A DNA stretch of 64,000 nt, taken from Cerasicoccus maritimus. GTDB lineage: Bacteria; Verrucomicrobiota; Verrucomicrobiia; Opitutales; Cerasicoccaceae. The notes under the pieces are model-generated. The model saw only the letters and a list, made by a program, of their open reading frames with translations, was not told the DNA's origin and made no database searches. This document shows positions 7,716 to 31,902 of this stretch, piece by piece. A program made the position numbers and the translations under genes. Positions within the stretch are counted from its first letter, which is position 1. Every line of letters starts with the position of its first letter. The stretch lies in the NCBI GenBank assembly GCA_031296935.1, contig JAVDPD010000002.1:81001-145000 (forward strand). The letters are read 5' to 3'.

Positions 7716-8153
7716 GGAAAAAGATTAAAGGAAAAAGTGGAATTCGAAGTCGCAGAAGCTTTCAAAGAATTCGAGAGCTTGCAGGTGTGGAAGCGCGCCT
7801 GTCGATTGACTGTTTCACTTTATCGCGAACTCGAATCTTTTCCTGATCGTAGTTTAAAAGATCAAATGACGCGGGCTTCAGTGTCGATTGCCTCAAACAT
7901 TGCTGAAGGTTACGAGCGCAATAGCCCTAAAGATTTTGTGCGTTTTCTGCGCATTGCTAAAGGCTCAACTGGCGAATTGCGAACGCAGCTATATCTGTCT
8001 CAAGCAGTTGGTCTGTTAAGCAAAGAACAAACCGAACCACTCGTGGCTGAATGTCGCGAAATCTCCGCCATGCTCCAAGGCTTCATCAACAAGATTAAGC
8101 TCTAACTTTACCAAACTCACCGAACTTTTTCCTTTTTTCTTTAATCTTTTTCC
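7716..8153 (+). mobile_element. Inverted-repeat-bounded mini-gene cassette 1 (IVS-like, four-helix-bundle gene)
   Basis: The four-helix-bundle gene is enclosed by inverted repeats rich in A on the left and T on the right. GGAAAAAGATTAAAG at 7716-7730 is matched by its exact complement at 8139-8153, and GGAAAAAG at 7730-7737 by CTTTTTCC at 8125-8132. The right side carries about six extra T residues between the two blocks. A transcript would fold so that the gene becomes the loop of a stem of over 20 pairs. This is the arrangement of 23S rRNA intervening sequences, whose usual encoded protein is this same family. Here it lies between two sugar-metabolism genes, beginning just after the glycosyltransferase stop. 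Confidence 0.65.
7737..8105 (+). CDS. Four-helix-bundle protein (23S rRNA IVP / S23 family)
   Basis: A ~122-residue all-helical protein of the four-helix-bundle family first known from 23S rRNA intervening sequences. Signature segments are FESLQVWKRACRL, LKDQMTRASVSIASNIAEGYER and FLRIAKGSTGELRTQLYL, which match the family's usual length and spacing. The GTG at 7737 is chosen because it falls exactly at the end of the left inverted-repeat arm and gives the normal family length; a TTG at 7695 overlapping the previous stop is also in frame. Function is not established: related proteins bind nucleic acid as pentamers (Avd in diversity-generating retroelements) or have no known job. Lower GC than the flanking genes suggests acquisition. 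Confidence 0.87.
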   Translation: MEFEVAEAFKEFESLQVWKRACRLTVSLYRELESFPDRSLKDQMTRASVSIASNIAEGYERNSPKDFVRFLRIAKGSTGELRTQLYLSQAVGLLSKEQTEPLVAECREISAMLQGFINKIKL

Positions 8154-8165
8154 TCCTTTTCTTCC

Positions 8166-9914
8166 ATGATCAAATACATCGACCAAGCCATTTTTACCCG
8201 CATTAAGCGTCGGCTCTACTACTTATACGGGGACCAGGCTGACCAGCTAACCGAACGCCTCTATTACATGGTGGGGCGCTATGGAGTGGGGACGAATCCG
8301 CCGCTCAAACCCGAGCACCGCTGGACTGAAAACGACGTCTTCCTCATTACGTATGCGGATATGGTGCAGAGCCAACAAAGCACGCCGCTGGCTACGCTGA
8401 AACGCTTTGCGACAGAGCACCTCAAAGGCGCAATCAGCACGGTGCATATTTTGCCGTTTTATCCGTGGTCGAGTGATGATGGCTTCTCCGTGATCGATTA
8501 CCGCGAGGTCAAGGAGGACTACGGCGACTGGAAGGACGTCGAGAATCTTGGCGATGAGTTTAAGCTGATGTTCGACTTGGTTTGTAACCATTGTTCCAGC
8601 CAAAGCCCTTGGTTCCGCGACTTCCTGATCGGCATTTCGCCGGCCAGTGAATACTTCGTCGAAATGGACCCGGAAACGGACCTCTCCGCTGTCGTGCGCC
8701 CGCGCACGTCGCCACTGCTGACGAAGACCACTACCCGCGATGGCGACGCCTATGTTTGGACGACTTTCAGCGCGGATCAAGTCGACCTGAATTGGAAGAA
8801 TCCTGATCTGCTGTTTGAGTTCCTGGACATCCTCATGGTCTACATCAGCCACGGCGCAACGACGGTTCGCCTCGACGCCTGCGCCTTCATGTGGAAAGAG
8901 GTGGGGACCGATTGCCTGCACCTGCCTCAAACGCACGAGATCATCAAGCTCATGCGTGACTTCTGCGAGCTCGTGGCGCCAGAGGTGTTAATCATTACCG
9001 AGACGAATGTACCGCATGATGAAAACGTCAGCTACTTCGGTCGAAATGACGAGGCGCACATGGTTTACAACTTTAGCCTGCCGCCGCTGCTTCTACACGC
9101 GCTGCTGACCAATAGCAGCAAATACCTGACGAAGTGGGCGAAGAAACTTGAGTTCCCGGATCCAGGCGAGGGCACGTTCTTCAACTTCACTGCGTCGCAC
9201 GATGGTGTGGGCGTGCGACCGCTACAGGGGCTGCTCCCACAAAAGGAATTCGATAAGCTGATCCACTCTGTGGAGCAGAGCGGGGCGCATGTATCCAAGC
9301 GGACGCTGCCCGACGGTTCGCAGAGCCCCTACGAGCTAAACATTACGTATTTCTCAGCGCTGTCCGGGCGTCATGATTCCGATGGCACGGGCGCCGCGCG
9401 CTTCCTGTGTTCTCAGGCTGTGGCGTTGGCTTTCAAGGGCGTGCCGGCAGTTTATTTCCATAGCTTGGTGGCGACGCCAAATTACCACGAAGGTGTCGAG
9501 CAGACGGGCGCTCCGCGCACGATTAACCGCCGCAAATACGACGAGCAGGAGCTGATGGATCTGCTGGGCGACAAGTCGCGCAAGCAGGGCAAGGTGTTCC
9601 GCAAATATCTACAGATGCTGCGCCGCCGCACGAACTACCCGGCCTTCCACCCGGACGGCGATCAGAAGATCATCGATGCAGGCCCAAATTTATTTGCCTT
9701 GGAGCGCACTTCGCCGCGTAAAAACCAGACGGTGTTCTGTGTGTTTAATTTCTCCGACGAGGAGCAAACCGTGGTCAACCCGAAGGACACCGAGCTGCTC
9801 AAGAAGGCGAAGAAATTCTACGACATCCTGTCGGGCAAGACCCACAGCGACGGCTCACGCGGCATTAAACTTGCGCCTTATCAGGCCATGTGGCTTGTGC
9901 CGCGAGTTGAGTAG
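8166..9914 (+). CDS. GH13 subfamily 18 sugar phosphorylase (sucrose / glucosylglycerate phosphorylase type)
   Basis: A 582-residue GH13 enzyme of the sucrose-phosphorylase subfamily. The catalytic triad is visible: nucleophile D237 in RLDACAF, acid/base E279 in ITETN, and D346 in SHDG. FYPWSSDDGFSVIDYR near residue 100 is diagnostic of subfamily 18. These enzymes split an alpha-glucoside with phosphate to give glucose-1-phosphate. Substrates in the subfamily include sucrose, sucrose-6-phosphate, glucosylglycerol and 2-O-glucosylglycerate. The adjacent glycosyltransferase and HAD protein favour a glycerate- or glycerol-based glycoside over dietary sucrose, but this is inference. There is no signal peptide, so it is cytoplasmic. 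The reading start is ATG 8166, right after the T-rich arm of cassette 1. Confidence 0.88.
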   Translation: MIKYIDQAIFTRIKRRLYYLYGDQADQLTERLYYMVGRYGVGTNPPLKPEHRWTENDVFLITYADMVQSQQSTPLATLKRFATEHLKGAISTVHILPFYPWSSDDGFSVIDYREVKEDYGDWKDVENLGDEFKLMFDLVCNHCSSQSPWFRDFLIGISPASEYFVEMDPETDLSAVVRPRTSPLLTKTTTRDGDAYVWTTFSADQVDLNWKNPDLLFEFLDILMVYISHGATTVRLDACAFMWKEVGTDCLHLPQTHEIIKLMRDFCELVAPEVLIITETNVPHDENVSYFGRNDEAHMVYNFSLPPLLLHALLTNSSKYLTKWAKKLEFPDPGEGTFFNFTASHDGVGVRPLQGLLPQKEFDKLIHSVEQSGAHVSKRTLPDGSQSPYELNITYFSALSGRHDSDGTGAARFLCSQAVALAFKGVPAVYFHSLVATPNYHEGVEQTGAPRTINRRKYDEQELMDLLGDKSRKQGKVFRKYLQMLRRRTNYPAFHPDGDQKIIDAGPNLFALERTSPRKNQTVFCVFNFSDEEQTVVNPKDTELLKKAKKFYDILSGKTHSDGSRGIKLAPYQAMWLVPRVE

Positions 9915-9921
9915 TTTTCCT

Positions 9922-10947
9922 CTATTCGAACAGCTCTTTTTGCTCGTCTTCCGGTGGGAGGTTGGTGGCGGGCCTCTCCGGGGGGTGGAGGTGCTGAGGC
10001 GGCTTTTTAACGCGGAGCGCGAGCGCGGCTTCGCCTTCTTCAACAAGGCGGTCGCAAATGCGGCGCACTTGCATCTTGAGCCAGCGGTGGGTCTGCGAGG
10101 TTTGGGTGTAGTCGGCTGGGCCATAGCTGTCTACGCGGCCGTCTTGCAGGAGCTGGTCGTTTTGCAGGAATTCACTTTCGCGCTCGGGATCGTAAACGGC
10201 GAAGGTCTTGCCCCCATTGCGTCGGACCACTGAAAAGACGGGCACGTCACTGGGGCCGTCGGCGATGTAGATCATGTTTTCCATCGGCACGCGGCGATCT
10301 TCGGGCAGCATCTTGGCGTTTACGGAGATGTCCGGGTTTTTGTTGGAGCCCTTATTGATCTCAAATATGTAGCGTGTCTTGATGGTGTTATCGACCATGA
10401 CGCCGATTTGGCTGATCTCGAAGTCCATCGGGATCTCCAGTTCGTTTTGCTTGAGATAGTAGGGCGCCAGGGGTGCCTCAATGAACTCACAGCCAAAGAC
10501 ACCATCGACTTCGGGTGCGATTTTGCTGCCACGTATCATTTCGGCAAGGCCAGTGCTGATGATGTAGTGCTCCAGCTGGATGTCGTGCTTGCGATAGGCA
10601 GCTTCGGATTTGGTGAACTCGGTTAGCTCCTTGAAAAAGTCGGGCAAGCCCGGGTAAAAGGGCAGTTCGGCGCCTAGCTCGCGCAAAATGCTGTTGCGCA
10701 GGCCTTTGAGTGGGCCGTTCTTAATGTAGCTGAGCAGGTGGTTCAGGTAAACGGTATCCGGGGAGACGTGGACACCACGATCGCCGTATATTTTCGGCAG
10801 CTCGTTGACCTCTTTCCAGAACTGCTTGCCGTCCACTTTGTAGCGGCGAAAGAGCGGCTCTTGCATGTAGCCGGGGATGAGCGTTTTATCAAAATCCCAG
10901 ACGCAGGCAACGATGCGTCGACGGTTCAGGCTGTGACTTGCAGGCAT
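9922..10947 (-). CDS. HAD superfamily phosphatase
   Basis: A 341-residue haloacid dehalogenase-like hydrolase. Motif I is WDFDKTLIP (nucleophile and acid/base aspartates, residues ~18-22), motif II is the ISTG segment, and motif IV is [12 protein letters not shown] long insertion between I and II suggests a helical cap domain. The tail after residue ~315 is Pro/Glu rich and probably disordered ([20 protein letters not shown]). It converges on the phosphorylase gene with only seven bases between stops. A phosphatase beside a GT4 enzyme and a GH13_18 phosphorylase would be consistent with removal of a phosphate during glycoside synthesis. The true substrate is unknown. Confidence 0.8.
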
Positions 10948-11060
10948 GGTTGATGAATAATGCGGAAAAAAGTCCCCACAGTGCGAGACTCAAAACAAAA
11001 GAAAGTCAGCATAATCTACAGTTGAAATACTGATCTTCTCGGTATTGGATTATCAGCAGT

Positions 11061-12266
11061 ATGGATCCTCGATTCCCCAATGGTCCACCTCATCCACCAT
11101 CAGGTGGAGGCCCTATGCCGCCCTTCCCCCCAGGCATGCGACCTCCACCGGGGACTCCCATGGGCCCACCACCACGTCCCCCACGACGCAAGCCCGGTGA
11201 AGTGGACCCCAATGAAGCGCCACGCAAGGGGCGTAATTTGATTAGGGATGAGGTGATTCAGACTGCGGCTAAACCAGTGATTGCCGGTAGTGAGCAAAAG
11301 TCGCGCCCGCGCTCTAGCAAGTCAAAGGATTACCAATTGCTCAATGGGATTCGCGTCGACAAGAAGTCCTTCTGGATCGGTTTTTGTTTTGTGAGTCTAG
11401 TCCTGGTTTTAGCGGGTAGCATCCCACTTTATCTGGTGCTGAGTTCACGGGCGCAGCAGCCTGCCCAAATGGCTGAGCAAACGCCTGAGCAGGAAGGAAA
11501 GACTGAGGAAGAGGGCCCATTGTCGGGGATTGAGGCAGCGCCATTGCGCGATTCTTTTCAGGAACTCAAAAGCGCCGCTTTGAAGCGCATTGACGATCCG
11601 GCCTCGATGGTCGAGGAAATCCTCACCGGTAACGCGCAAGCAACGGGTTGGGACAAGGCGCGAACGTATTCGCTGGAAGGAACGCTAAAGACCTCCAGTC
11701 GTGAATACTTGTTGAATCTATTCGTCAAGGCACCCAATCAGGTAAGGCAGGTATTAACCATCGAGGAAATGAAGATCACAACGATTTTCAATGGTGCCAG
11801 CGGCGCTTTGCAGGCCAAGGATTTTACAAAGAACCGCGAAATGGACCGGGAGATGACCGTGGCGCAGAATATTTCCCTCTTGATGGCGTCGATCCCCAGC
11901 ATGCCATTGTGGCAGTATGCGGAAAACGAGGAAGCGCTGCGCTACGAGGGTAAACGCTCGATGCACGGTATGATGTGCCATGTGATTGTTAACGAGGCTC
12001 ATGCACCTTACACGATTGAGCACTTCATTGATATCGACCAACTAGTAGAACGCTATCGGACGATGGAAGGGCTCGATGAAAACGATCAGACGATACAAAT
12101 CGAAGTCGCCTTTTCAGATTACCAGCGGCAGGGCGGCTTTTACGCACCTTCTCAAATTTTGGTTCACGAAAAATCCGCGATCGAAGTGAATAGCGAATTT
12201 ACCATTGAGAAATGGCGCTTCAATCACGGTCTTTTACCGAGCCTCTTTCAGCTCGATAACTCGTAG
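11061..12266 (+). CDS. Single-pass membrane protein with Pro/Gly-rich N-terminus and LolA-like C-terminal domain
   Basis: A 401-residue protein. Residues 1-55 are very rich in Pro, Gly and Met (repeats such as PPFPPGMRPPPG), then comes a basic stretch. One membrane helix lies at ~105-128 (FCFVSLVLVLAGSIPLYLVL), followed by an acidic linker. The C-terminal ~220 residues resemble outer-membrane lipoprotein-carrier-type beta folds: a YSLEGTLKTSSREYLLNLFVKAP strand pair and a bound-cofactor-like ITTIFNGASGALQ turn. The layout (cytoplasmic tail, one helix, periplasmic LolA-like domain) matches the protein at 41527-42408, so the two look like distant paralogues. Function is unknown. The gene is divergent from the HAD gene, with a 113-base gap. 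Confidence 0.7.
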   Translation: MDPRFPNGPPHPPSGGGPMPPFPPGMRPPPGTPMGPPPRPPRRKPGEVDPNEAPRKGRNLIRDEVIQTAAKPVIAGSEQKSRPRSSKSKDYQLLNGIRVDKKSFWIGFCFVSLVLVLAGSIPLYLVLSSRAQQPAQMAEQTPEQEGKTEEEGPLSGIEAAPLRDSFQELKSAALKRIDDPASMVEEILTGNAQATGWDKARTYSLEGTLKTSSREYLLNLFVKAPNQVRQVLTIEEMKITTIFNGASGALQAKDFTKNREMDREMTVAQNISLLMASIPSMPLWQYAENEEALRYEGKRSMHGMMCHVIVNEAHAPYTIEHFIDIDQLVERYRTMEGLDENDQTIQIEVAFSDYQRQGGFYAPSQILVHEKSAIEVNSEFTIEKWRFNHGLLPSLFQLDNS

Positions 12267-12290
12267 AGCAAGCAAGGCAATTGGATCAGC

Positions 12291-12349
12291 CATTTGCGCA
12301 ATACGCAAATCCGGATGCAGCGCATCCGACGGGCCAGCCGGAGGCTGGG
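12291..12349. repeat. REP-like three-hairpin element, copy 1 (order C-B-A)
   Basis: Three palindromes lie side by side: ATTTGCGCAATACGCAAAT (12292-12310), CGGATGCAGCGCATCCG (12312-12328) and CCAGCCGGAGGCTGG (12334-12348). The last abuts the stop codon of the minus-strand HAD gene, so the element begins at that gene's 3' end. It also separates two convergent genes. Confidence 0.85.
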
Positions 12350-12967
12350 TTAGATGCCGGCGCCGGCTGAGTAGGTTTCGGGGTCGATATAGACCCAGCG
12401 CATGCCGGCGGCTTCGGCGGCTTGAAGGCCCAGCTTGCTGTCTTCGAAGACGACGCATTTCGTCGGGTCAACGCCGAGTAGCTCCGCGGCCTTCAGGAAG
12501 CCATCGGGCGCGGGCTTGCTGTTGACCACGTCCGCCTTGGTTACGACGACTTCGAATAAATCCTCGATCCCGCAATACTTCAGCGTGCCATAAACGTGGC
12601 GTGGATCGCCGCCGGAGGCCACTGCGAGCGGATAGCCCTCGGCCTTGAGCTCGCGCGCGATTTCCGCGACTGGGTGAATCAGCTCCACGTGCTGGTGCTC
12701 GCGGCTGAAGTAGTCGTTGTTGTCCTCGACGACCACATCGGCGTCGAGGTTGTCATTAAAGCGCTCGTTGAACTGATAGACGGTGTCGTGCATGCCGACA
12801 CCGGCCATCGAATAAAAAAGCTCCCAGGTGAAGTCGAACTTGGCGCCGTTTTTCTCAAAGGCGTATTTCCACGCCCGATAGTGCAGCGGCATCGTGTCGG
12901 CCAGCGTTCCGTCGCAATCAAAGATATACGCCGCAGTTTCTCCCTCCGGTAGCTTTAATTCGTTCAT
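12350..12967 (-). CDS. HAD hydrolase, beta-phosphoglucomutase-like (subfamily IA)
   Basis: A 205-residue HAD protein. Motif I is IFDCDGTLADTMPLHYRAW (residues ~15-33) with the small helical cap typical of beta-phosphoglucomutase and related sugar phosphatases. Motif II is VASGG, the lysine motif is SKPAPDGF, and motif IV is VFEDSKLGLQAA. It acts in the cytoplasm on a small phosphorylated metabolite. The DGTLADT start and the CxGTLKY/PDGFLKAAELL segments fit phosphatases or mutases of hexose phosphates. Its ATG overlaps the topB stop by four bases, so the two are cotranscribed. Since a GH13_18 phosphorylase (producing glucose-1-P) lies 2.4 kb away, a sugar-phosphate role is plausible but not shown. 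Confidence 0.85.
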   Translation of the reverse strand: MNELKLPEGETAAYIFDCDGTLADTMPLHYRAWKYAFEKNGAKFDFTWELFYSMAGVGMHDTVYQFNERFNDNLDADVVVEDNNDYFSREHQHVELIHPVAEIARELKAEGYPLAVASGGDPRHVYGTLKYCGIEDLFEVVVTKADVVNSKPAPDGFLKAAELLGVDPTKCVVFEDSKLGLQAAEAAGMRWVYIDPETYSAGAGI

Positions 12968-15498
12968 CCCTCTTTTTTAGCGGCCTTTTTGGCAGCCTTT
13001 TTAGCTGCTTTTTTCTTCGGGGGCCGGGGGGGAAACTCAAAACCAATCTTGCCGTCGTCCTTGAGCAGAAGGTGGGCGTCGAACAAACGACCCGTGCGGT
13101 TGGACTTGAAGCCCTTGATGAGGCCGGTCTTTTTCTCGGCCAACAGCTTCTTCACTTCCTCGGGAGGCAAGGTCTTGCTCAGCATGTTACGGCTCAAGCG
13201 GAAGGCGGGTTTGCCGTCGGGGTCGCGACCTTCGGAGACGTAGGCGTTGGGCGTTTCGCGGACGGGGCTGCCGTCCACCGGCGAGACGCCAACCTGCGGA
13301 TACTGGCTGAGGTCCACGCTTTCATCGAGCGCTTCTTCGCCGTTGTTGCCGAAGTCGAGCTCCACGCGGTGTGTGCCGTTTTCCTTTGCGGTCAACTTGA
13401 GGATGGCCGAGAAGGTTTTGCCGGTCTTCGAGGAGAAGCCGTCGACGGGGCCGATCTCGCGCTTGGTAATCAGCTCCTGGACTTCTTCAAGGGAAAGCTT
13501 GCGGTTGCCGATGACCTTGTTGACTTGCAGCACCGGGTACTCACGACCGCGGATTTCCACCTTGTCCTGGGAGAACCACGCGCGGTGGTCTTCCATGAGC
13601 GGTTCGTTGTTGGTCGGCGAAACCAGGCTGGTCTTCTCGGGGGGCGGCGGGTTGTTGAGCTTGTCCACCATGTCCTGCGTGGAGTCGATGATGCCCTTCA
13701 TGAAGGCGTCGCGGGAGAGCCCGCCTTCTTCGACGAGGCGCAGCTTGTGCTCCCATTCGCCAGTCATGGCGGGGGAGGTGAGCTGCTCAATGTCGAATTG
13801 CTTGAGGAACTGCATGAGGCTCTCGGCCTTTTGTGTCGGGACGAGTTCGCGGCCCTGGCGCTCCATGTAGCGTTCGTGCGCAAGGTGGTCAATGGTGGCC
13901 GCGCGGGTAGCTGGCGTGCCGAGACCCTTTTCCTTCATCGCTTCGGCCAGCTCTTCGTCGTCGAGCAGCTTGCCGGCGCTTTCCATTGCAGAGAGCAGCG
14001 TGGCTTCCGAATAGCGGGGCGGGGGCTTGGTCTGATCTTCTTCGAGGTGAGCTTCCTGGCGATCGGCAATGGCGACCTTGGGTTGCCCACTGCGGGCAAA
14101 GTCTGGATCGGTCAACGGAGTTAGCGTGTCTTCGCCGATGCCACCCTTGCCGTAAACATCCATCCAGCCGCCAACGGCGAGCACCTTACCCTCGGTCTTG
14201 AAGGAGTGGCCCGCAATCTCGCTGGTGCGCGTGGTGACGTCGAACTCCGCCGAGGGGAAGAACACGGCGATCGTGCGGCGCGCAATCATGTCGAAGACTT
14301 TGGCTTCGAGGTCGCCGAGCTTCTTGGGCTTGGCGTCGGTCGGGATGATCGCAAAGTGATCGCTGACCTGCTTGTTGTTAAAGATGCGCTTGTTGCCAGT
14401 GTGGACCCAGTCGTTGGCGAGTACCTTCTCGGCGTGGATCGCGTAGGGCTCATCGAGGTTGGCCAAGGTATTTCTCACCGTGGGACCGTAGTCTTCCGGC
14501 AGCGCCCGCGAGTCAGTTCGCGGATAGGTGATCATCTTGTGCTTTTCGTAGAGGGCCTGCGCAATGTTCAGCGTGTGGCCGGCGGCCAGGCCGAAGCGGC
14601 TGTTGGCCTCGCGCTGGAGGCTGGTCAGGTCGTAAAGGCGCGGAGCGGATTGCTTGGAGCGCTTCTTCTCTTCGGTGACGTTGGCTTCACCTGCGGCCAT
14701 CACGGCCTGCACGATGGCTTCGGCGTCGGTCTTGTTCCAAATGCGGTCAGCGCGGTCGTGCTCGTCGTCGCCTTTCTTGAAATTGGGCTTCTGATAGAGG
14801 CCGGAGTATTGGCCGGCGGCTACGCCGAAATCTGCGGTAATGCGCCAGTAGTCACGGGGCTTGAAGTTGCGGATTTCCAACTCGCGCTGATAGATGAGCG
14901 AGAGGGTGGGGGTCTGCACGCGGCCAACGGTGGCGGCGCGTCCGCCCCGGCGACCAAACACGATGGTGGCGCCGCGGGTGCCGTTGATGCCGATCAGCCA
15001 GTCTGCCTCGGAGCGCGAGCGCGCGGCGTCTTGCAGCGGCTGCATCTCGGCGTCGTCGCGGAGGTTGGCGAACGCGGATTTAATGGCGTCCGGGGTCATG
15101 GACGACATCCACAGGCGCTTGACGGGCTTCTTGTTTTTGGCGAGTTCGAGGATGTAGGTAAAGATGAGCTCACCCTCGCGCCCGGCGTCACAGGCGTTGA
15201 TGACGGCGCCCACGTCTTTGCGGGCAATGAGCTTTTTCAGCTCTTGAAACTTCTGCTTGGTCTTGTCGATCGGCTTGAGCTTAAACTTGTCCGGGACGAT
15301 GGGCAGCGTCTTGATGGTCCAGCGCTTGAGGTCCTTGCTGATATCCTCGGGCATGTAGAGCTCCACGAGGTGGCCGACGGCCGAGCTGATCACGTATTCG
15401 TCGTTTTCGTAAAAATCGCCCTTTTTCGGGATCTTCCCCAACACGCGGGCCAGGTCGCCCGCCACGGATGGTTTCTCGGCAATAACTAAAGTTTTCAT
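12964..15498 (-). CDS. topB: DNA topoisomerase III
   Basis: An 844-residue type IA topoisomerase. The TOPRIM domain opens the protein (MKTLVIAEKPSVAGDLARVLG, with the DAGREGELIF acidic motif near residue 105). The active tyrosine is Y325 in MITYPRTDSRALP. The C-terminal part has two repeats of the topoisomerase C-terminal domain (FSAILKLT-type and FDAHLLLKDDGKIGFEFPPR). The very end is a Lys/Ala-rich tail, KKKAAKKAAKKAAKKEG, likely for DNA contact. It relaxes and decatenates single-stranded crossings at replication forks. It is followed by the overlapping HAD gene and preceded by cassette 2, whose inverted repeat ends about 30 bases upstream of the ATG. No Shine-Dalgarno sequence is visible. 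Confidence 0.95.
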   Translation of the reverse strand: MKTLVIAEKPSVAGDLARVLGKIPKKGDFYENDEYVISSAVGHLVELYMPEDISKDLKRWTIKTLPIVPDKFKLKPIDKTKQKFQELKKLIARKDVGAVINACDAGREGELIFTYILELAKNKKPVKRLWMSSMTPDAIKSAFANLRDDAEMQPLQDAARSRSEADWLIGINGTRGATIVFGRRGGRAATVGRVQTPTLSLIYQRELEIRNFKPRDYWRITADFGVAAGQYSGLYQKPNFKKGDDEHDRADRIWNKTDAEAIVQAVMAAGEANVTEEKKRSKQSAPRLYDLTSLQREANSRFGLAAGHTLNIAQALYEKHKMITYPRTDSRALPEDYGPTVRNTLANLDEPYAIHAEKVLANDWVHTGNKRIFNNKQVSDHFAIIPTDAKPKKLGDLEAKVFDMIARRTIAVFFPSAEFDVTTRTSEIAGHSFKTEGKVLAVGGWMDVYGKGGIGEDTLTPLTDPDFARSGQPKVAIADRQEAHLEEDQTKPPPRYSEATLLSAMESAGKLLDDEELAEAMKEKGLGTPATRAATIDHLAHERYMERQGRELVPTQKAESLMQFLKQFDIEQLTSPAMTGEWEHKLRLVEEGGLSRDAFMKGIIDSTQDMVDKLNNPPPPEKTSLVSPTNNEPLMEDHRAWFSQDKVEIRGREYPVLQVNKVIGNRKLSLEEVQELITKREIGPVDGFSSKTGKTFSAILKLTAKENGTHRVELDFGNNGEEALDESVDLSQYPQVGVSPVDGSPVRETPNAYVSEGRDPDGKPAFRLSRNMLSKTLPPEEVKKLLAEKKTGLIKGFKSNRTGRLFDAHLLLKDDGKIGFEFPPRPPKKKAAKKAAKKAAKKEG

Positions 15499-15527
15499 GT
15501 AATATATTTCTGACAGGGCGCTGTTTT

Positions 15528-15989
15528 AAACAGGAAGATCGGGAAGAACGGGAAGCTCAGTTATCCGCTCCTGGTAAGGTTAACCGGCGAATGCCGTTCT
15601 TTAAATAAGGTTCGTAAAAGTTAAGGATGAGTCCAATCGGCGCATCGAGCAAACGCATGTAGCTAAGTGTCTGGGCAATGTGGGCCGGACTGATTTTTTC
15701 AACGACCTTAAGTTCCACCAAGAGACATTCTTCAACAAAAATGTCTGCTCGAATGTATTCATCAAAAACTTCTCCACGGTATTCAATCGGCACCTTGACT
15801 TCGCGTTTGGACGCTATGCCTTCGAGCGTTAAATCCCGATTGAGAGCTTTTTGATAGATAGGTTCCAGAAGACCGGGACCGAAGTGTCGATGCACCCGAA
15901 AGGCGGAATCAATAACCGGTTTGGTTAGCTCATCTGCCTTTACGTAATTTGGATGCATCAACTTCCCGTTCTTCTCGATCTTCCTGTTT
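15528..15989 (-). mobile_element. Inverted-repeat-bounded mini-gene cassette 2 (GxxExxY gene)
   Basis: A 28-nt arm at 15528-15555 (starts AAACAGGAAGATCG) is the reverse complement of 15962-15989 with one mismatch. The enclosed gene fills the interior: its stop codon begins one base inside the left arm and its ATG lies three bases inside the right arm. Read as RNA, the gene is the loop of a 28-bp stem. Same design as cassettes 1 and 3, but with an unrelated protein. It is inserted between the aminotransferase and topB on the same strand. Confidence 0.75.
15557..15958 (-). CDS. GxxExxY protein (PD-(D/E)XK nuclease-like)
   Basis: A 133-residue member of the GxxExxY family, named for the motif seen here as GLLEPIY (in HFGPGLLEPIYQKAL). 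A PD-(D/E)XK-like core follows: the acidic residue in ADIFVEE, then LLVELKVV, with the E-x-K pair that would bind metal. The family is common in Verrucomicrobia, Planctomycetes and Lentisphaerae. Its biological role is not established, though a nuclease fold is predicted. A TTG one codon earlier is also possible. The striking point is the setting: the coding region exactly fills the space between two long inverted repeats. Confidence 0.88.
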   Translation of the reverse strand: MHPNYVKADELTKPVIDSAFRVHRHFGPGLLEPIYQKALNRDLTLEGIASKREVKVPIEYRGEVFDEYIRADIFVEECLLVELKVVEKISPAHIAQTLSYMRLLDAPIGLILNFYEPYLKNGIRRLTLPGADN

Positions 15990-16019
15990 GAACCTTCGCT
16001 TGTTTGGTTAGTTCCTTGT

Positions 16020-22731: not shown

Positions 22732-22734
22732 CCA

Positions 22735-22891: not shown

Positions 22892-22901
22892 AGGTAGCCT
22901 C

Positions 22902-23068
22902 TAAGAGGGCGTCTAAAAAGTCTGATCGAGTCGGCGAGATGTATTCGAGAGGCAAAATTTCGGCTTCTGAATCGAGGCGAAACCAGTTTCGTCGAGATGA
23001 AGAAATGATATTTTGACCTCGAAGACGCTCTCCGGCGAAGACCACTTGAGTTTTTAGACGCCCTCTAA
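22902..23068. mobile_element. MITE-1, copy 1 (~165 bp)
   Basis: The ends are AGAGGGCGTCTAAAAA (left, from 22904) and TTTTTAGACGCCCTCT (right, to 23066), a perfect 16-bp inverted pair. The interior is about 130 bases and is almost identical, in the opposite orientation, to the copies at 26532-26699 and 44705-44866. There is no coding capacity. Such short elements are moved by a transposase encoded elsewhere. Confidence 0.85.
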
Positions 23069-24034
23069 GTAATGTAGGGCGACGCTTACAGGCTAGCCGC
23101 CTCGTCGCCTCACGGTCCAAATCCGTCATATTAAGGTAGCGGCCAGCGTCCCCGCTGGCCAAGCTTGGAACGAGAATGATTCAATCAGTCCACGCTACCC
23201 CTACATCCGCGAAACATGCGATCCAGATAATCAATTACTGTCAGCCTGCATGGTGGCCAGCGGGGCCGTCCCCATTGTTCTCGGCGTGGTGTCGTGCAAA
23301 CTGTTCAATCGCGGCGTCCGCGCCTACTTCATGCGCAATCGGCTTGTGGTGGCGTAGGCTCGGGAAGCAGCGGACCAAGCAGGGTGATTCGCTATTCTGG
23401 CTTAGTTGGTAGTATAAAATTAAGCATTTAAATATGTTCACTAAATGATGGACGCGCTGCGGCCTTTGTGCATGATTGGAAGTTCAGTTAATCCTAACCA
23501 TCCACCACCGTGAAAAATTCTCCCAATTCAGCCCTTGGCCACCCGCCTTAGCCGGCGGTTAGTCGAGTCGATGTGTCCGCGAATGCATTCGTTCGCGCGT
23601 GACGTTGTCGCCGTTGACCGAGCTCATTCGCCCCCGCACTGGTGACAGCTTTGCGGCCGGCGACGCTTGGAGGCGTTCATGCGGTTTTCCGCGCAATCTC
23701 ACGCCCGATTATGCCAGCTTGCACTTCCGCGCATGGACGTTTGGACGCCCGACACAACGGGGCGTCGTCCCACTGCGCCGTGGTTTTCGGCGGCGGCGTG
23801 GTTGCCTGTTCTTTGATAGTTTGTTTGGGCGGTCGTTTTACCCCCCCCTGGCCCCCCTCCGCGCCTAGCGCCTGAGTCTCCTAGACCTGCTGAGTGACCG
23901 TTTGGGAGTTATCTTCTTCAGAATCAGAGGGGTGAGGCTTATACCTTAAAAAATAACAAAAACATAAGGGATGATTCTTGGAATTATAAGTTAATCAGAT
24001 ACATGGCTTACATTACTGTGTTATATTTGATCAT
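23069..24034. other. Repeat-rich stretch without an intact gene
   Basis: Nearly 1 kb. It holds a dispersed repeat GTAGGGCGACGCTT... (23074-23100), an 8-bp GC-rich hairpin (GGCCAGCG/CGCTGGCC, 23141-23160), the tail of a lost gene (23172-23357), and from 23440 a GC-rich piece with short open frames of odd composition that I do not believe. The last 100 bases turn AT-rich and lead into the acyltransferase gene. Confidence 0.5.
23172..23357 (+). pseudogene. Possible 3' remnant of a membrane-protein gene
   Basis: A 61-residue open piece ends at TAG 23355-23357. It reads ENDSISPRYPYIRETCDPDN, then a hydrophobic helix (SACMVASGAVPIVLGVVSCK) and a basic tail (RGVRAYFMRNRLVVA), as at the end of a membrane protein. 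There is no start codon at the left, where the frame runs into repeat DNA next to MITE-1. Probably the end of a gene destroyed by insertion or deletion. Family unknown. Confidence 0.35.
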
Positions 24035-26246: not shown

Positions 26247-26310
26247 TAGAGATAACATGAAGTTGCCGGGTTGAGCAAGTGCTGGACCCGGCAACTTCAT
26301 GTTATCTCTA
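26247..26310. repeat. 25-bp perfect inverted-repeat hairpin element, copy 1
   Basis: The 25-base arm at 26247-26271 (TAGAGATAACATG..., ending CCGGGT) is perfectly complementary to 26286-26310, with the 14-base loop TGAGCAAGTGCTGG. A second, half-decayed copy with nearly the same loop lies at 46873-46920. Confidence 0.8.
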
Positions 26311-26424: not shown

Positions 26425-26441
26425 GACTGAGAGGCAGCTGT

Positions 26442-26469: not shown

Positions 26470-26531
26470 CTCAAAATGATAGTTTGGAACCCGTCAGCAT
26501 GGGGTGCGGCGCGGGGACGCGCCTGCGCTAC

Positions 26532-26699
26532 CTAAGAGGGCGTCTAAAAACTCAAGTGGTCTTCGCTGGAGAGCGTCTTCGAGGTCAAAATATCATTTCT
26601 TCATCTCGACGAAACTGGTTTCGCCTCGATTCAGAAGCCGAACTTTTGCCTCTCGAATACATCTCGCCGACTCGATCAGAGTTTTTAGACGCCCTCTTA
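26532..26699. mobile_element. MITE-1, copy 2 (~165 bp)
   Basis: Complete copy: TAAGAGGGCGTCTAAAAA at the left and TTTTTAGACGCCCTCTTA at the right, a perfect inverted pair. The interior is nearly identical to copy 3 in the same orientation and to copy 1 inverted. It lies against REP-like copy 3. Confidence 0.88.
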
Positions 26700-26709
26700 G
26701 AGATAAGCC

Positions 26710-26766
26710 ATTTGCCCAATGGGCAAATCCGGATGCGAGGCATCCGACGGTGCAGCGGGACGCTGC
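26710..26766. repeat. REP-like three-hairpin element, copy 3 (C-B-A)
   Basis: ATTTGCCCAATGGGCAAAT (26710-26728), CGGATGCGAGGCATCCG (26730-26746) and GCAGCGGGACGCTGC (26752-26766). The last overlaps the first base of the stop region of the minus-strand permease gene, so again the element starts at a gene's 3' end. Confidence 0.85.
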
Positions 26767-27713
26767 TAGCTGAAGCGGAGTTTGGGGTTCATCACGGCTT
26801 GGACGATTTCGGCGAGCATGTTGAGCACGACCAGCAGTGTTGCGTAAAACAGCGCGCAGCCGATGACGAGCATGGCGTCGCGATTGATCGCGGCCTCGAC
26901 GAAAAACCGGCCCAGGCCCGGGATGCGGAAAATGGTTTCCACGACGAATGAGCCGCTGATCAGCCCAGCCGCCGCTGGCCCGAGGAAGGACACCACCGGT
27001 AAAATGCCGTTGCGCAGGCCATGCACGCCATACACGCGCCAGCCGCTGACGCCCTTGGCGAGCGCCGTGCGCATGTAGTCCTGGTTGCGGACCTCCAGCA
27101 TGCTGCCGCGCGTGAGGCGCGCAAGGTAGGCCGCGTAAAACAGACCCAGCGTGAGCGAGGGCAACACGCGGTCGCTGGCAAACTCCCAGCCCGACACGTT
27201 GAACCACTGCAGATCGAGCGCGAAATACAGCAGGAGCAGCGGCCCGATGACAAACGTGGGCAGGCAGATACCAAGCATCGCGAGGCTCATCGGCAGGTGA
27301 TCAGTCCACGTGTGGGGACGCCATGCCGCGATCACGCCGGCGCTGACGCCGATCAGGATCGCGATGATCAATGAGTAGAGCCCGAGCTCGAGGGAAATGG
27401 GAATTTTCTGGCCCATAAGCTCATCCACGTCCCAGCCGGTGTAAGTCGTGGAGACGCCGAGGTCGCCCTGTAGGAGGCCGCGGATTTCGCCATCGGGCCG
27501 CGGGGCGATGCCCATAAACTGGCCGTATTGCACGATGAGCGGCTGGTCGAGACCGTATTGTTTCTCGTAAGCCTCGCGAATGTGCGTGGCGACTTCTTTC
27601 TCTTTGTCAAACGGAGAGCCGGGCGCCGCGCGCATCATGAAGAACGCCATCGTTGCCAGGAGCAACAGCACCGGGATGGTTTCGAGCAGGCGTCTGAGGA
27701 TGAGCTTCGTCAT
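26766..27713 (-). CDS. ABC transporter permease, OppB/DppB type
   Basis: A 315-residue permease of a peptide- or oligosaccharide-type ABC importer. It begins ILRRLLETIPVLLLLATMAFFMM, the usual first membrane helix and its preceding LRR. The long periplasmic loop carries REAYEKQYGLDQPLIVQYGQ. The cytoplasmic coupling (EAA) loop is DYMRTALAKGVSGWRVYGVH, and GSFVVETIFRIPGLGRFFVEA follows. About six helices, normal length. No partner genes (OppC, ATPases, binding protein) lie on either side: upstream is the amidase, downstream only repeats. The rest of the transporter must be elsewhere, or this is a relict. Confidence 0.9.
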   Translation of the reverse strand: MTKLILRRLLETIPVLLLLATMAFFMMRAAPGSPFDKEKEVATHIREAYEKQYGLDQPLIVQYGQFMGIAPRPDGEIRGLLQGDLGVSTTYTGWDVDELMGQKIPISLELGLYSLIIAILIGVSAGVIAAWRPHTWTDHLPMSLAMLGICLPTFVIGPLLLLYFALDLQWFNVSGWEFASDRVLPSLTLGLFYAAYLARLTRGSMLEVRNQDYMRTALAKGVSGWRVYGVHGLRNGILPVVSFLGPAAAGLISGSFVVETIFRIPGLGRFFVEAAINRDAMLVIGCALFYATLLVVLNMLAEIVQAVMNPKLRFS

Positions 27714-27800
27714 GTGTCCTCCAGGTCTGCAAGGCGAGCCGGGACATCTACTGCTTGTCTTTTAGGCATTGTGAGTAAGCTAGCCATGCGGTGCGTTAGG

Positions 27801-28997
27801 TCAAGGTGCGGCGTAGAAACGAACTAGCGCGAGTTCGACCGCACGGGCGTAGGTTTGCGCTAATTGCTCGGGGTTTTCCTGGTAGTCTGAGTAGAAGCCG
27901 ACTTCGTTCGCGACGAAGGGCTCGAGGAAAATGGTTGGGCATTGGTAAAGGCGGTTCGCCATCAGATTGCGCGCCCACACGTAGGGGTTGGGGTTGATGC
28001 GCACGGCGTTTGGGCCGGTGTAGGTGAAGGGAGGCTGAGGCGATATTTCGCGAAAGCAAACGGCCATTGTATCGGCCAGTGGGCGCTCGACTTGCCACGT
28101 GCCGCTGAGCAGGCGCTCGATCATGGCGTAGCGTTGGTCATCGTAGCTCAGCTCGTCCGCGCTGTAGGCGCCGTTGACAAGGAAGTGCGCGTAACCTTGG
28201 TCGGCGAGCTCCTTGTCTTCGGGCGTCGTTGTGCCGTCGACATGGAGGCAGAGGGTCACGTCGGGCTGGAACTGTTCGTTGACTAACTGCGCGCGCGCCT
28301 TGATCTCGCTCACCCGGTAAAACAACAGACGAGCGAGGGACTTTTCCTTCAGCTCACGGTCCTTCACGTCGAGCTCCAAGCCAGGCGTCAACTCGCGCTC
28401 GGTCACGAGCTTGGCTGCCAGCGGGCGCAGGCTTTCGGGCGTGTCGGTGGTGACGGGTTCGTTGGTTTCGCGGACTAAATAAACCGTCGCGCCAAGGGCT
28501 TCGAGTTGCGGCTTGAGCACCTTGGAAACCTCGAGCACGAACTCGCCTTCGCGGAAGAGCGGGCCGTCCGAAGTTTTCCAACTGCGGAATTCCATCGCGG
28601 CGAATTCTCCGCCGATGTGCCCCGGGTCGAGAGCAACTTTCAGGCCGGCGAGGGGGAGGGCGTCGTCGGGCTTGGTCGCGCGCCACTCATCGCGCGTGCG
28701 CCAATAGCGCGGCGGCGGGGCCGGGAGGCGGCCGTATTCGCGGAATTCGATTTCGTAGGGCTCGGCATCGTCTTCAAAGCGGAGCACGAGGGCGCGGTCG
28801 CGCTCCACGGTGACCCAGCCTTCGTTCGCGCCGTTGGGGGCGTACTGGGATTCCAGCAGCCAGCGAAAATCACTGGCGGTGAGTTGGGCTTGATATTCGC
28901 CCAAGCGCGACCAATCTGGGGCACTGCCCATCGAGGTAAGTTTCTCGGCGCCGAGCGTTCCCGCCCAGCAAAAAATCAACATCGCCATCCACCGCAT
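27801..28997 (-). CDS. N-acetylmuramoyl-L-alanine amidase (amidase_3)
   Basis: A 398-residue exported zinc amidase that cuts the bond between muramic acid and the stem peptide. The signal peptide is MRWMAMLIFCWAGTLGA. The catalytic domain starts near residue 150 with LKVALDPGHIGGEFAAMEFR (first zinc His, then Glu). Other landmarks are VLEVSKVLKPQLEALGATVYLVRET and VTLCLHVDGTT with the third zinc ligand. The ~140-residue N-terminal part, with YPNG-like and WVTVERDRALVLRF segments, is not recognised. Earlier in-frame starts lack a signal peptide and would overlap the divergent glycosylase gene. Only 18 bases separate the two start codons. Confidence 0.85.
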   Translation of the reverse strand: MRWMAMLIFCWAGTLGAEKLTSMGSAPDWSRLGEYQAQLTASDFRWLLESQYAPNGANEGWVTVERDRALVLRFEDDAEPYEIEFREYGRLPAPPPRYWRTRDEWRATKPDDALPLAGLKVALDPGHIGGEFAAMEFRSWKTSDGPLFREGEFVLEVSKVLKPQLEALGATVYLVRETNEPVTTDTPESLRPLAAKLVTERELTPGLELDVKDRELKEKSLARLLFYRVSEIKARAQLVNEQFQPDVTLCLHVDGTTTPEDKELADQGYAHFLVNGAYSADELSYDDQRYAMIERLLSGTWQVERPLADTMAVCFREISPQPPFTYTGPNAVRINPNPYVWARNLMANRLYQCPTIFLEPFVANEVGFYSDYQENPEQLAQTYARAVELALVRFYAAP

Positions 28998-29015
28998 CCC
29001 GACCACATTGCCCAC

Positions 29016-29741
29016 ATGACCATTGCCAAACAACTGGAAAATGCCGCGATTACGCTGCGCGACGCTGTCGACGCGCTTAGCTTCAGCGAGCCCGTCACCC
29101 ACGTGTATAATCCCCTGGCGTACGCCTGGGAGTCGCATCTGCTATACATCCGGCGTTTCGGCAATTCCAAGAAGAAGGTCGTTTTTCTCGGTATGAATCC
29201 GGGCCCCTTCGGCATGGCGCAGACGGGCGTGCCGTTTGGCGAAATCGCCGCCGTGCGCGATTGGATGGGCATCACGGCTCCCGTTGGCAAGCCGCCCGTG
29301 GAGCACAAAAAGCGCCCCGTCGATGGCTTTGATTGCCCGAAAAGCGAGGTTAGCGGTCGTCGTCTGTGGGGCCTGATGATGGACCGCTTTGGCGCGCCGG
29401 AAAATTTCTTTGCCGATCATTACGTCATTAATTACTGCCCGCTGCTCTTCCTCGATGGCTCCGATGGCAAGTGCCGCAATTTAACGCCGGACAAGCTCAA
29501 GGCGTCCGACGTCAAAGACATGTATGCCGCCTGTGATGACCACCTGCGCTCGGTCCTTGACGCGCTCCAGCCCGAGTGGCTCATCGGCGTCGGTGGCTTC
29601 GGTGAGCAAAAGCTCGCCGATCTCAATTGGGACAAGCCACACAGCATTGGCAAAATTCTCCACCCGAGCCCCGCCAGCCCTGCCGCCAATCGCGGCTGGG
29701 CCGAAGCCGCCACCAAGCAACTCTCCGCCCTCGGCCTCTAG
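29016..29741 (+). CDS. SMUG1-type single-strand-selective uracil-DNA glycosylase
   Basis: A 241-residue uracil-DNA glycosylase of the SMUG1 family, which removes uracil and oxidised pyrimidines in base excision repair. Motif 1 is VVFLGMNPGPFGMAQTGVPFG (GMNPGP is the SMUG1 signature). The C-terminal motif is LHPSPASPAANRGW, with the catalytic-loop His. IVGGFGEQKL lies between. The frame is open much further upstream, but that part is antisense to the amidase, so ATG 29016 is used. It is divergent from the amidase with an 18-base gap, so each promoter must lie within the other's coding region. A REP-like element follows the stop immediately. Confidence 0.88.
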   Translation: MTIAKQLENAAITLRDAVDALSFSEPVTHVYNPLAYAWESHLLYIRRFGNSKKKVVFLGMNPGPFGMAQTGVPFGEIAAVRDWMGITAPVGKPPVEHKKRPVDGFDCPKSEVSGRRLWGLMMDRFGAPENFFADHYVINYCPLLFLDGSDGKCRNLTPDKLKASDVKDMYAACDDHLRSVLDALQPEWLIGVGGFGEQKLADLNWDKPHSIGKILHPSPASPAANRGWAEAATKQLSALGL

Positions 29742-29797
29742 CAGCCTCCGGCTGGACCGGCGGATGCTGCGCATCCGGATTTCTGCATTGCGGAAAT
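29742..29797. repeat. REP-like three-hairpin element, copy 4 (A-B-C)
   Basis: CAGCCTCCGGCTG (29742-29754) directly follows the TAG of the glycosylase gene. CGGATGCTGCGCATCCG (29761-29777) and ATTTCTGCATTGCGGAAAT (29779-29797) complete the set. Confidence 0.85.
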
Positions 29798-29902
29798 GGC
29801 TAATCGATGACTCTGAGGTGGCGCGGATCGTCTCGATCCGCAGTTTCATTTGCTCACATCCATCCGCAGGTCCGCGTAGGCCATCAGGCGACAATCACGC
29901 AC

Positions 29903-29935
29903 AAAAAAAAAACCGCCCGGATGACTCCGGACGGC
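29903..29935 (-). terminator. Rho-independent terminator of the trmD-rplS-rplI operon
   Basis: Reading leftward: GCCGTCCGG pairs with CCGGGCGG around a short loop (29913-29935), followed by a run of ten T residues (29903-29912). It lies about 25 bases past the rplI stop. Confidence 0.88.
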
Positions 29936-29961
29936 AATTTTTGAAAGGATTAAGCAGGAGC

Positions 29962-30465
29962 TTAGGCTTCGGTCTTTTCTTCCTCGGCACCTTCTTCGGC
30001 AACTTCCTCGATCGGGTTTTCGGAAACGACTTCCCATTCGAGTTCGTAGGAGACTTCCGGGTGGAGCTTCACCTTGGTGGTGTGCTTGCCCAGGGTCTTA
30101 ACCGGAGTGTGGAGGTTGAGCTGCTTGCGCTCGACTTCGATGCCGTCTTCCTTGAGGCGGTCAACGAGGTCTTGAGAAGTGACGGAGCCGAACATCTTGC
30201 CACCTTCACCGGTCTTCACTGCGATAGCGATGGAGACGGTTTCGAGGCGGGCGAGGACTTGCTCAGCGTGCTCGCGCTCTTGCTTGAGGCGGGCATCCTT
30301 ACGGGCCTGAAGGGCTTCGATGTGCTTTCTGTTGGCGCGGTTGACCGGGAGGGCCAGCTTGCGCGGCAGCAGGAAGTTGCGGGCGTAACCAGCCTTTACG
30401 GAGACTTGGTCGCCTTCGTGGCCGAGGTTCTCGACGGGCTCGAGGAGTAAAACGTCTTGGTTCAT
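29962..30465 (-). CDS. rplI: 50S ribosomal protein L9
   Basis: A 167-residue L9 protein. It begins DVLLLEPVENLGHEGDQVSV, then KAGYARNFLLPRKLA, the universal L9 signature. A long connecting helix (residues ~45-80, charged) joins the C-terminal domain (GKMFGSVTSQDLVDRL). The last ~15 residues are an acidic extension (EEVAEEGAEEEKTEA) beyond the usual end. L9 sits near the L1 stalk and limits frameshifting. It is the last gene of an operon after rplS (21-base gap) and ends before a strong terminator. Linking L9 to rplS is unusual: in many bacteria it lies with rpsF and rpsR. Confidence 0.97.
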   Translation of the reverse strand: MNQDVLLLEPVENLGHEGDQVSVKAGYARNFLLPRKLALPVNRANRKHIEALQARKDARLKQEREHAEQVLARLETVSIAIAVKTGEGGKMFGSVTSQDLVDRLKEDGIEVERKQLNLHTPVKTLGKHTTKVKLHPEVSYELEWEVVSENPIEEVAEEGAEEEKTEA

Positions 30466-30486
30466 TGGTAAATTGCGTCTCGGGGT

Positions 30487-30858
30487 TTACTTCTTGCGGC
30501 CGGCTTCAATGAGGCGCTTTTCCTTAACCTCGGTAGCCTTCTTACCGATGCGGTCACGCAGGTAGTAGAGGCGAGCCTTGCGGGTGATGGACTCACGGTC
30601 GACTTCGATCTGGTCGATGTTCGGGCTGTGAATCGGGAATACCTTTTCGACGCCTTCGCCGAAGCTGATGCGGCGGACCGTGAAGGTTTCACGGATGCCG
30701 GAACCCTTGCGGGCGATAACGATGCCAGCAAAGATCTGGATACGTTCTTTGTCGCCTTCGCGAACGCGGGTGTGGACGCGCACGCCGTCACCTACCTTGA
30801 AATTGAGGCGGCTGGAGTCGAGTTGGTCCGAGGTGACTTCTTCAAGTGTGGCTTGCAT
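30487..30858 (-). CDS. rplS: 50S ribosomal protein L19
   Basis: A 123-residue L19 protein of normal length. Landmarks are [46 protein letters not shown] and [16 protein letters not shown]19 lies at the interface of the two ribosomal subunits. It follows trmD by 15 bases on the same strand, as in most bacteria, and precedes rplI. No Shine-Dalgarno sequence is seen before the ATG (CCACCCACCAGTC). Confidence 0.97.
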
Positions 30859-30873
30859 GACTGGTGGGTGGAA

Positions 30874-31566
30874 TTACTGGTGGCCTTCGGTGTCGGAGTT
30901 TTCCAACAGGTCTGGCCGGCGTTCTTTGGTTTTTAAATAGCTTTGCTCCCGCCTCCACGCTGCGATTTTCGCATGGTCGCCACTCAGTAAAACCTCCGGA
31001 ACTTTCATTCCGCGGTACTCAGCTGGACGCGTGAATTGAGGAAAACCGAGGAAAGTGTCGTGAAAGGAGTCTTGCGTCAAGGATTTTTCTTCACCTAAAA
31101 CGCCGGGCACATAACGGGCCACGCAATCGATCAAAACACAGGCCGGGAGGGTGCCATTGGTCAGCACATAATCGCCGATGGAGACCTCCCGCGTGACGAG
31201 TGCATCGCGCACCCGCTGGTCGATGCCCTCGTAGTGCCCGCTCACGAGAACCAAGTGCTCCTTCTGAGCGAGTTCCTTCACCAGTGGCGTGTTGAGCTGC
31301 TCGCCGTCGGGGCACAGATAAATGACCTCCGCGCCCGGCGTGGCGATCTCTTCTATAGAGTGAAAGAGCGGCTCGGGCGACAGCAGCATCCCCGCGCCCC
31401 CGCCAAATGGGCGGTCGTCGGCGGTTTTGTGCTTATTTTGGGACCAATCGCGCAAATCGTGCACGCCAATCTCCAGCAGACCCTTCTTGGTGGCCTGCCC
31501 GAGCATGCTTTCCTGCAAGTAGCCCTCGGCCATGCGAGGGAAAAGGGTGATTAGGTCGAAGCGCAT
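30874..31566 (-). CDS. trmD: tRNA (guanine37-N1)-methyltransferase
   Basis: A 230-residue SPOUT-class enzyme that methylates G37 next to the anticodon and prevents +1 frameshifting. It begins MRFDLITLFPRMAEGYLQES. Knot-region motifs are DRPFGGGAGMLL, VSGHYEGIDQRV and IGDYVLTNGTLPA, with LLSGDHAKIAAWRRE near the end. It is the first gene of trmD-rplS-rplI. Upstream, the position usually held by rimM is instead occupied by cassette 3 and the rpsP terminator, so this operon must have its own promoter in or near the cassette. Confidence 0.97.
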   Translation of the reverse strand: MRFDLITLFPRMAEGYLQESMLGQATKKGLLEIGVHDLRDWSQNKHKTADDRPFGGGAGMLLSPEPLFHSIEEIATPGAEVIYLCPDGEQLNTPLVKELAQKEHLVLVSGHYEGIDQRVRDALVTREVSIGDYVLTNGTLPACVLIDCVARYVPGVLGEEKSLTQDSFHDTFLGFPQFTRPAEYRGMKVPEVLLSGDHAKIAAWRREQSYLKTKERRPDLLENSDTEGHQ

Positions 31567-31617
31567 TGGGTGAAATGGTGGATTCGTGGCTGGCTGGTTG
31601 GATGGAACGATTTTTTA

Positions 31618-31902
31618 ACCGCAGAGAACGCAGAGAACGTGGAGAGCGCAGAGTTTAAATGGAGGGAGGTGTTCTGTAGATTAAGTCTTCTATACATGGA
31701 TCATTCTTTTGAATGTATCCACGGTATTCTAGGCGGCCGGGTTGTTCCATTTCTTCCAATAGATCTGGCGGTAAGCTACCATTGCCTTATGTCCAAATGA
31801 AGTAGCGATCTTCATACTCACTAAACACTGCTAATTGGTAACCTTTGTAGACTACGAATTCTATTTTTTTGCTCACTCTGCGTCCTCCGCGTTCTCTGCG
31901 GT
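31618..31902 (-). mobile_element. Inverted-repeat-bounded mini-gene cassette 3 (decayed)
   Basis: ACCGCAGAGAACGC (31618-31631) is the exact complement of 31889-31902. The following GCAGAGT (to 31654) matches ACTCTGC at 31875-31881; the left arm carries nine extra bases. Inside lies a 74-codon frame whose start and stop codons abut the arms, as in cassettes 1 and 2, but with a stop at codon 30. It sits between the rpsP terminator and trmD. Confidence 0.65.
31655..31876 (-). pseudogene. Small gene interrupted by an in-frame stop (inside cassette 3)
   Basis: From a GTG at 31874-31876 reading leftward: VSKKIEFVVYKGYQLAVFSE, then YEDRYFIWT, a TAA at codon 30, and on in the same frame GNGSLPPDLLEEMEQPGRLE through LIYRTPPSI to a TAA at 31655-31657. 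Both halves look like real protein, and the frame is kept for all 74 codons, so the stop appears to be a recent point mutation. A functional 29-residue product or readthrough cannot be excluded. I do not recognise the family. The coding piece fills the cassette exactly. Confidence 0.5.

Follow-up and report, generated by a model that had tools for sequence, protein, structure and literature searches.

Miniature inverted-repeat transposable elements (MITEs) and composite transposons have inverted ends, gene-less copies and genes caught between two copies, and in the REPIN/RAYT system paired inverted units dispersed between genes are tied to one protein family, a Y1 tyrosine transposase. Intervening sequences (IVSs) of 23S rRNA with an S23/IVP open reading frame (ORF) hold a gene for a PF05635 protein within inverted arms, carry heptameric direct repeats at the 5′ end, such as the tandem GACAGAT heptamers of the Coxiella IVS, and are cut by RNase III; according to the available text of a 2016 account their function and origin 'remain unclear' more than 25 years after discovery (PMC4990558). 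Tandem 7-nt units are also described in the intergenic DNA of other bacteria, with GGGAATC in Xanthomonas (70 and 75 convergent heptamer pairs in two genomes) and GGGGA(C/T)T in Nostoc, for which the sections available offer no settled cause (PMC4692102), and TAACTGA in Beggiatoaceae, for which a repeat-binding protein is only speculated upon in the text available (PMC4679880). Here we describe elements of related form in a 64,000-nucleotide stretch of the Cerasicoccus maritimus genome (contig JAVDPD010000002.1, positions 81,001 to 145,000; the whole stretch is referred to as the window), in which small genes for IVP or GxxExxY proteins lie within inverted arms between ordinary protein genes. 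We favour, with a probability of roughly 0.6, the interpretation that these represent one architectural class of stem-loop elements mobile at the level of DNA, with a small protein that recognizes its own arms, 23S rRNA IVSs being one niche of the class.

A first-pass annotation of this DNA had reported three short genes, each exactly enclosed by inverted repeats of unrelated sequence. The inverted repeats are real, with arm scores of 20.5, 26.0 and 19.5 at loci 1, 2 and 3 exceeding the maxima of 17.5, 13.0 and 14.0 obtained from 2000 dinucleotide shuffles each. At locus 1 the arms (7715-7737 and 8132-8154; all arms are given without strand) are 96% complementary, and the 5′ arm is of heptamer type and contains AGGAAAAAGATTAAAGGAAAAAG. 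The gene (7704-8105, plus strand) encodes an IVP four-helix-bundle protein matching PF05635 and TIGR02436 (E 1e-34; 119.1 bits against a cut-off of 33.8 and 119.9 against 24). Its GTG start, placed by eye at 7704, puts the 5′ arm within the N-terminus of the ORF rather than outside it. At locus 2 arms at 15518-15566 and 15951-15999 are 80% complementary, with a core at 15525-15555, which contains AACAGGAAGATCGGGAAGAACGGGAAG and belongs to a dispersed arm family termed 'b', and at 15962-15992. They flank a GxxExxY gene (15557-15961, minus strand; PF13366/TIGR04256, E 3e-35, 121.4 bits against a cut-off of 22) in which PD-(D/E)XK residues are conserved. At locus 3 the arms at 31615-31650 and 31870-31905 are 81% complementary and can be extended to 31604-31919, giving arms at 31604-31650 (CRCRRAG type, R being a purine, and containing TTAACCGCAGAGAACGCAGAGAACGTGGAGAGCGCA) and 31870-31919. 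The interior (31651-31869) has only short fragments of ORFs, spread over several frames, and gave no match to Pfam or NCBIfam, and for these reasons 'a gene' is too strong a term for what may be decayed or unknown cargo. A short gene within each repeat pair is therefore upheld by profile matches at loci 1 and 2 and not at locus 3.

Arms of this kind are enriched around both gene families. A profile search of the window's genome returned eight PF05635 and eight PF13366 matches, and at 14 of these 16 loci the arm pair scored above the best of 200 shuffles, L006 equalling the best and L008 having none. Arms were counted as present at a score of at least 15. Ten genomes of the window's family contained 55 PF13366 (GxxExxY) and 41 PF05635 (IVP) matches, of which 51 GxxExxY genes (omitting three locus 2 orthologues, whose arms were scored separately, and one short fragment) and 36 IVP genes (omitting five partial or weak matches) were examined; arms were present around 48/51 and 23/36, respectively. 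As a control, 1.237 Mb of the window's genome was scanned, where 13 of 1051 other ORFs had such arms; several of these 13 appear by eye to lie between two elements and not inside one. Among 79 genomes of the window's phylum PF05635 was found in 54 and PF13366 in 34, and in a non-random sample of 57 loci, taken as best matches and without one GxxExxY locus that lay at the edge of its contig, arms flanked 22/28 GxxExxY and 18/29 IVP genes, with none in 57 single shuffles and with mismatched flank pairs reaching 15 in 24/756 and 10/812 combinations. A further 28 genomes chosen for an arm pattern, by their titles mostly of other phyla with a few Lentisphaerae, included 24 with IVP, and arms were present at 24 of 30 loci (shuffles 0/30). 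On plasmids, from 15 of 33 matching records that were fetched, 8/11 IVP and 2/4 GxxExxY loci were armed. One plasmid locus, L400 from Sphingomonas, has its GxxExxY gene flanked by fabD and fabG; the arms there barely exceed shuffles (11.5 against 11.0). No rRNA was matched by Rfam in the window or at 20 IVP loci. These data support the suggestion in the first-pass annotation that stem-loop cassettes with varied cargo form a general class, located outside rRNA and related to 23S rRNA IVSs; a lack of enrichment around these families in other genomes, named there as grounds for rejection, was not observed.

The arms are not unrelated sequences, as had been supposed, and follow a repeat grammar specific to the protein family. 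Self-matching of arms in the family set gave a period of 8-11 in 47/48 GxxExxY elements and of 7 in 18/23 IVP elements, the latter period occurring in only 1/48 GxxExxY elements (p 2e-11). The corresponding values for period 7 were 1/22 GxxExxY against 14/18 IVP in the phylum set, 21/24 armed IVP loci in the further genomes and all eight armed IVP loci on plasmids. Many IVP arms in the further set consist simply of heptamer arrays, as in Lyngbya, an Oscillatoriales cyanobacterium, Bacteroidales and Lentisphaeria. Counting motifs requires no pairing of arms; one or both flanks contained two CRCRRA units at 62/79 GxxExxY but 2/95 IVP loci, and a 28-nt run of lag-7 identity at 0/79 and 40/95, respectively. 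This is a cleaner test than a phylogenetic one, for which arm labels were set by hand, although on a tree of 50 GxxExxY proteins, many of them same-site orthologues, arm type changed 12 times compared with 27.9 in shuffled labels, and with one row per site (30 sites, 27 labelled) 10 times compared with 13.9, none of 200 shuffles being as low. Read inwards, G outnumbers C in the arms of 55/62 IVP elements, and the same holds for 34 of the 46 GxxExxY elements with unequal counts; in this direction GxxExxY arms are purine-rich in 45/48. A proposed rule that the purine-rich arm always lies upstream of the gene was dropped because an inverted repeat reads identically on both strands, and inward polarity alone is meaningful. 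Arm grammar thus depends on gene family, with one kind of repeat per family, also in distant bacteria.

Gene-less copies of the same arms form hairpins whose loops span 14-29 nt and more. With up to three mismatches allowed, the window's genome has 31 copies of arm 'e', which is absent from four of ten genomes, and 35 of arm 'b', which is absent from one of ten; reversed-pattern controls gave 0 and once 1. By eye elements are also nested, e within d, e within b and b within d. Further cargo enclosed by arms in the window's genome comprises a TPR protein and two proteins without a Pfam match, and at L136 (G000:C6:158787-160009) a gene resembling SGNH hydrolases (Pfam score just below cut-off) lies between two e-arm elements; the same junction in genome G003 lacks this gene and has an IVP gene instead. 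Inverted ends, gene-less copies and passengers are what would be expected if these were MITE-like elements moved by some transposase acting in trans, with GxxExxY and IVP genes carried as passengers like the DUF4926 and TPR genes, and neither cargo protein matches a transposase family. A passenger should not, however, predict the ends of the element that carries it, and here arm grammar fits the protein family in distant genomes and arm type follows the protein tree. We therefore regard this explanation as unlikely.

The first-pass annotation had further suggested that the elements act as RNA. On such a reading the long stem of the transcript would be selected and cut by RNase III, and the loop would be released, spliced or reverse-transcribed. 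The 23S rRNA IVSs share the form and are cut in this manner (PMC4990558, in the part available), and elements can lie in sense between co-directional genes. As had been noted, both intact genes have the transcription direction of their neighbours, the IVP gene of locus 1 lying between glycosyltransferase and alpha-amylase-like genes and the GxxExxY gene of locus 2 between aminotransferase and topoisomerase I genes. In orthologous locus 1 elements, moreover, both arms have changed together. Selection of a sense-strand RNA stem should leave an excess of G·U over A·C mismatches between arms, yet with genes oriented 57 G-U-type and 71 A-C-type mismatches were counted (p 0.25), a test of limited power with a binomial interval of about 0.36-0.54 for the G-U fraction. 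In genome G005 two b-armed copies (L353 and L354), each with a nested CACGGAG hairpin, have loops that are 86% identical when one is inverted and 57% in direct orientation, with left flanks 75% alike (direct) and right flanks uninformative; the loop has been flipped between the arms, which is a DNA event. Arms also retain motif and polarity, beyond mere complementarity. Action at the RNA level is not supported by these data and appears quite improbable, action at the DNA level being the more likely.

Comparison of the same sites among relatives, proposed with the original observation, revealed sites that are empty or otherwise filled. At site 1 five genomes carry an IVP element with scored arms and G005 is empty; G008 has an IVP gene with arms below the cut-off (12.0) and G009 a hairpin, and two further features were seen by eye only, a hairpin in G007 and a lone arm in G006. 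Site 2 has a GxxExxY element in four genomes and none in two. Three genomes have a gene-less hairpin there, with two types of arm among them, and a fourth has a marginal hairpin. At site 3, located between rpsP and trmD and read in eight genomes, arms enclose the ORF fragments in the window's genome; in G002 they surround a DUF4926 gene and in G003 the gene of a protein that Pfam does not match. G009 has a short hairpin, and G001, G004, G006 and G007 have no scored arms. A GNAT gene at site 3 of G001 was considered as a passenger and is not counted, as the arm scan finds no arms there. A junction read as cysD-cysN is occupied by IVP elements in G002 and G009 but empty in the window's genome, and a second IVP site is empty in the window's genome and filled in G002. 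Such differences count against a non-mobile origin, in which slippage and template switching would enlarge tandem units and palindromes between genes and catch small genes by chance. Heptamer arrays do vary in unit number (PMC4692102, PMC4990558) and polymerase slippage has been proposed for them (PMC4692102), as far as the available text of these sources goes. Arms are nevertheless found at only 13/1051 other ORFs, and arm families are dispersed through the genome with reversed-pattern controls of 0-1; such an origin seems highly improbable.

In 27 GxxExxY proteins the putative catalytic residues D73, K85 and Q97 are invariant and E33 and E83 are present in at least 90%, and there is a QxxxY resemblance to Cas4/RecB nucleases. 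The PDB entries closest to the predicted GxxExxY fold (predicted local distance difference test 66) are an archaeal Holliday junction resolvase (E 0.038), the Cas4 protein SSO0001 (E 0.044) and a tRNA-intron endonuclease (E 0.056). Lambda exonuclease follows at E 0.19, surrounded by unrelated proteasome chains, and these matches to a modelled structure are a hint only. T7 endonuclease I was rejected as a relative, the profile match being not significant (E 1.4). Viral contigs contained no relative detectable by a short-peptide method, which reaches close relatives only, and a phage collection searched for IVP alone contained none.

On this basis we infer movement of the elements, its route, arm binding and catalysis as follows. 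The class would consist of small intergenic elements with a single gene or nothing within inverted arms built of short tandem units ('iterons'), with one branch in which spaced CRCRRAG-like units of period 8-11 go with a GxxExxY nuclease and another in which tandem heptamers go with the IVP four-helix-bundle protein. Each protein would bind its arms as DNA and, once bound, promote copying or moving of the DNA that they enclose, whether its own gene, a gene-less mini-hairpin or a passenger. For GxxExxY the likely chemistry would be PD-(D/E)XK cleavage at an extruded arm, as a cruciform or single-stranded hairpin. Insertions that fall after the stop codon of one gene and ahead of the following start, or within an older element, would be tolerated, and 23S rRNA IVSs would be IVP-branch elements that landed in rRNA, where the transcript is cut by RNase III.

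A number of observations weigh against this interpretation. Movement was not seen in the sequences compared, and target-site duplications were not resolved in the compared filled and empty sites, which are too diverged. Same-site orthologues inflate the tree test, and its corrected version is modest. Heptamer similarity tracks protein similarity only among closer IVP proteins (r 0.215 overall, 0.135 under 70% identity and 0.027 under 50%). To our knowledge IVP has no known catalytic site, and that branch therefore has no chemistry. Of the IVP genes, 13/36 (family set), 11/29 (phylum set) and 6/30 (further set) score below the cut-off for arms, and when family genes in the control region are scored by their ORF ends only 5/8 reach 15, an effect of some ORFs extending into an arm. 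Nor do arm copies strictly accompany genes of the matching type; in genome G004, where 17 arms are e-type and 27 b-type, none of the four GxxExxY genes is e- or b-armed. A 30-nt CRCRRAG arm pattern occurs in at least 118 stretches and, among 80 titles listed, in many phyla and one archaeon. Among the matches listed, however, only 37 of the 110 arms with 1 kb of downstream sequence have a partner, and the 118 stretches listed include only three GxxExxY genes, one (L197) between a pair, one (L172) just behind an arm at the end of its stretch, and one (L249) between a weaker pair (16.5 compared with 14.0 in 20 shuffles). Cyanobacterial copies among these matches (Microcoleus and relatives, L194-L242) are mostly single arms.

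In one of the latter, L242, three CRCRRAG arms without a partner are regularly spaced at 135 nt. The window also contains repeats of other kinds. Two copies of a 169-bp element (22901-23069 and 26532-26700) with CTAAGAGGGCGTCTAAAAA ends and a 125-nt interior, of which more are present in the genome, look like an ordinary MITE. Further palindromic repeats are found at 46919-47056, 33796-33970, 26247-26310 and 44881-45108; several such families recur in the genome and by eye resemble repetitive extragenic palindromic (REP) sequences.

The proposed elements share some features with known systems and differ from them in others. With REPIN/RAYT they share paired inverted units dispersed between genes and tied to one protein family, but here the arms are iteron arrays and many copies carry their own gene; no Y1 tyrosine transposase was met as cargo, which was PF05635 or PF13366, the rest of the genome not having been searched for RAYTs. 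Terminal inverted repeats, gene-less copies and genes between copies are also seen in MITEs and composite transposons, but no transposase is among the cargo families found. Unlike in an integron cassette the gene lies within the hairpin and not beside it, and unlike a self-splicing intron with a homing endonuclease the window contains no intron RNA core, the Rfam scan of its whole length having returned neither this nor rRNA. The 23S rRNA IVSs are the closest in form, but the elements here lie between protein genes, occur in gene-less, nested and passenger-carrying forms and include a second branch with a nuclease. For heptameric repeats no partner protein is named in the available parts of the published accounts (PMC4692102, PMC4679880), whereas here heptamer arms flank IVP genes. 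A literature search, with most subscription journals outside its scope, did not find this element class, and the papers listed by a text search with arm letters look like primer matches.

23S_rRNA_IVP genes are listed as a function in cas loci in the portion available of an earlier survey (PMC3936711). Three IVP genes of cyanobacterial plasmids lie within CRISPR-cas operons, two between cas6 and cas4 and one between cas10 and cmr3. Heptamer arms are clear at one (L394, 25.5), weak at another (L398, 14.5) and absent from the third (L390, 6.5), and insertion therefore explains at least one of the three. Armed IVP genes within cas operons may bear on the reported co-occurrence of IVP and cas.

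It is possible, although we would not quite place it at even odds, that these elements form an unrecognised, phylum-spanning group of transposase-less mobile DNA in which a lone PD-(D/E)XK nuclease or four-helix-bundle protein recognizes iteron-built inverted arms and moves any cargo between them, with bacterial heptameric repeats and rRNA IVSs being arms and copies that belong to the IVP branch. The pairing of each arm grammar with one protein family provides candidate proteins for both IVSs and heptameric repeats, and these are testable. If correct, many genes annotated as 'four helix bundle' or 'GxxExxY', together with many intergenic hairpins, would represent one neglected class of mobile DNA, to which some odd genes within operons would also belong and which carries passengers.

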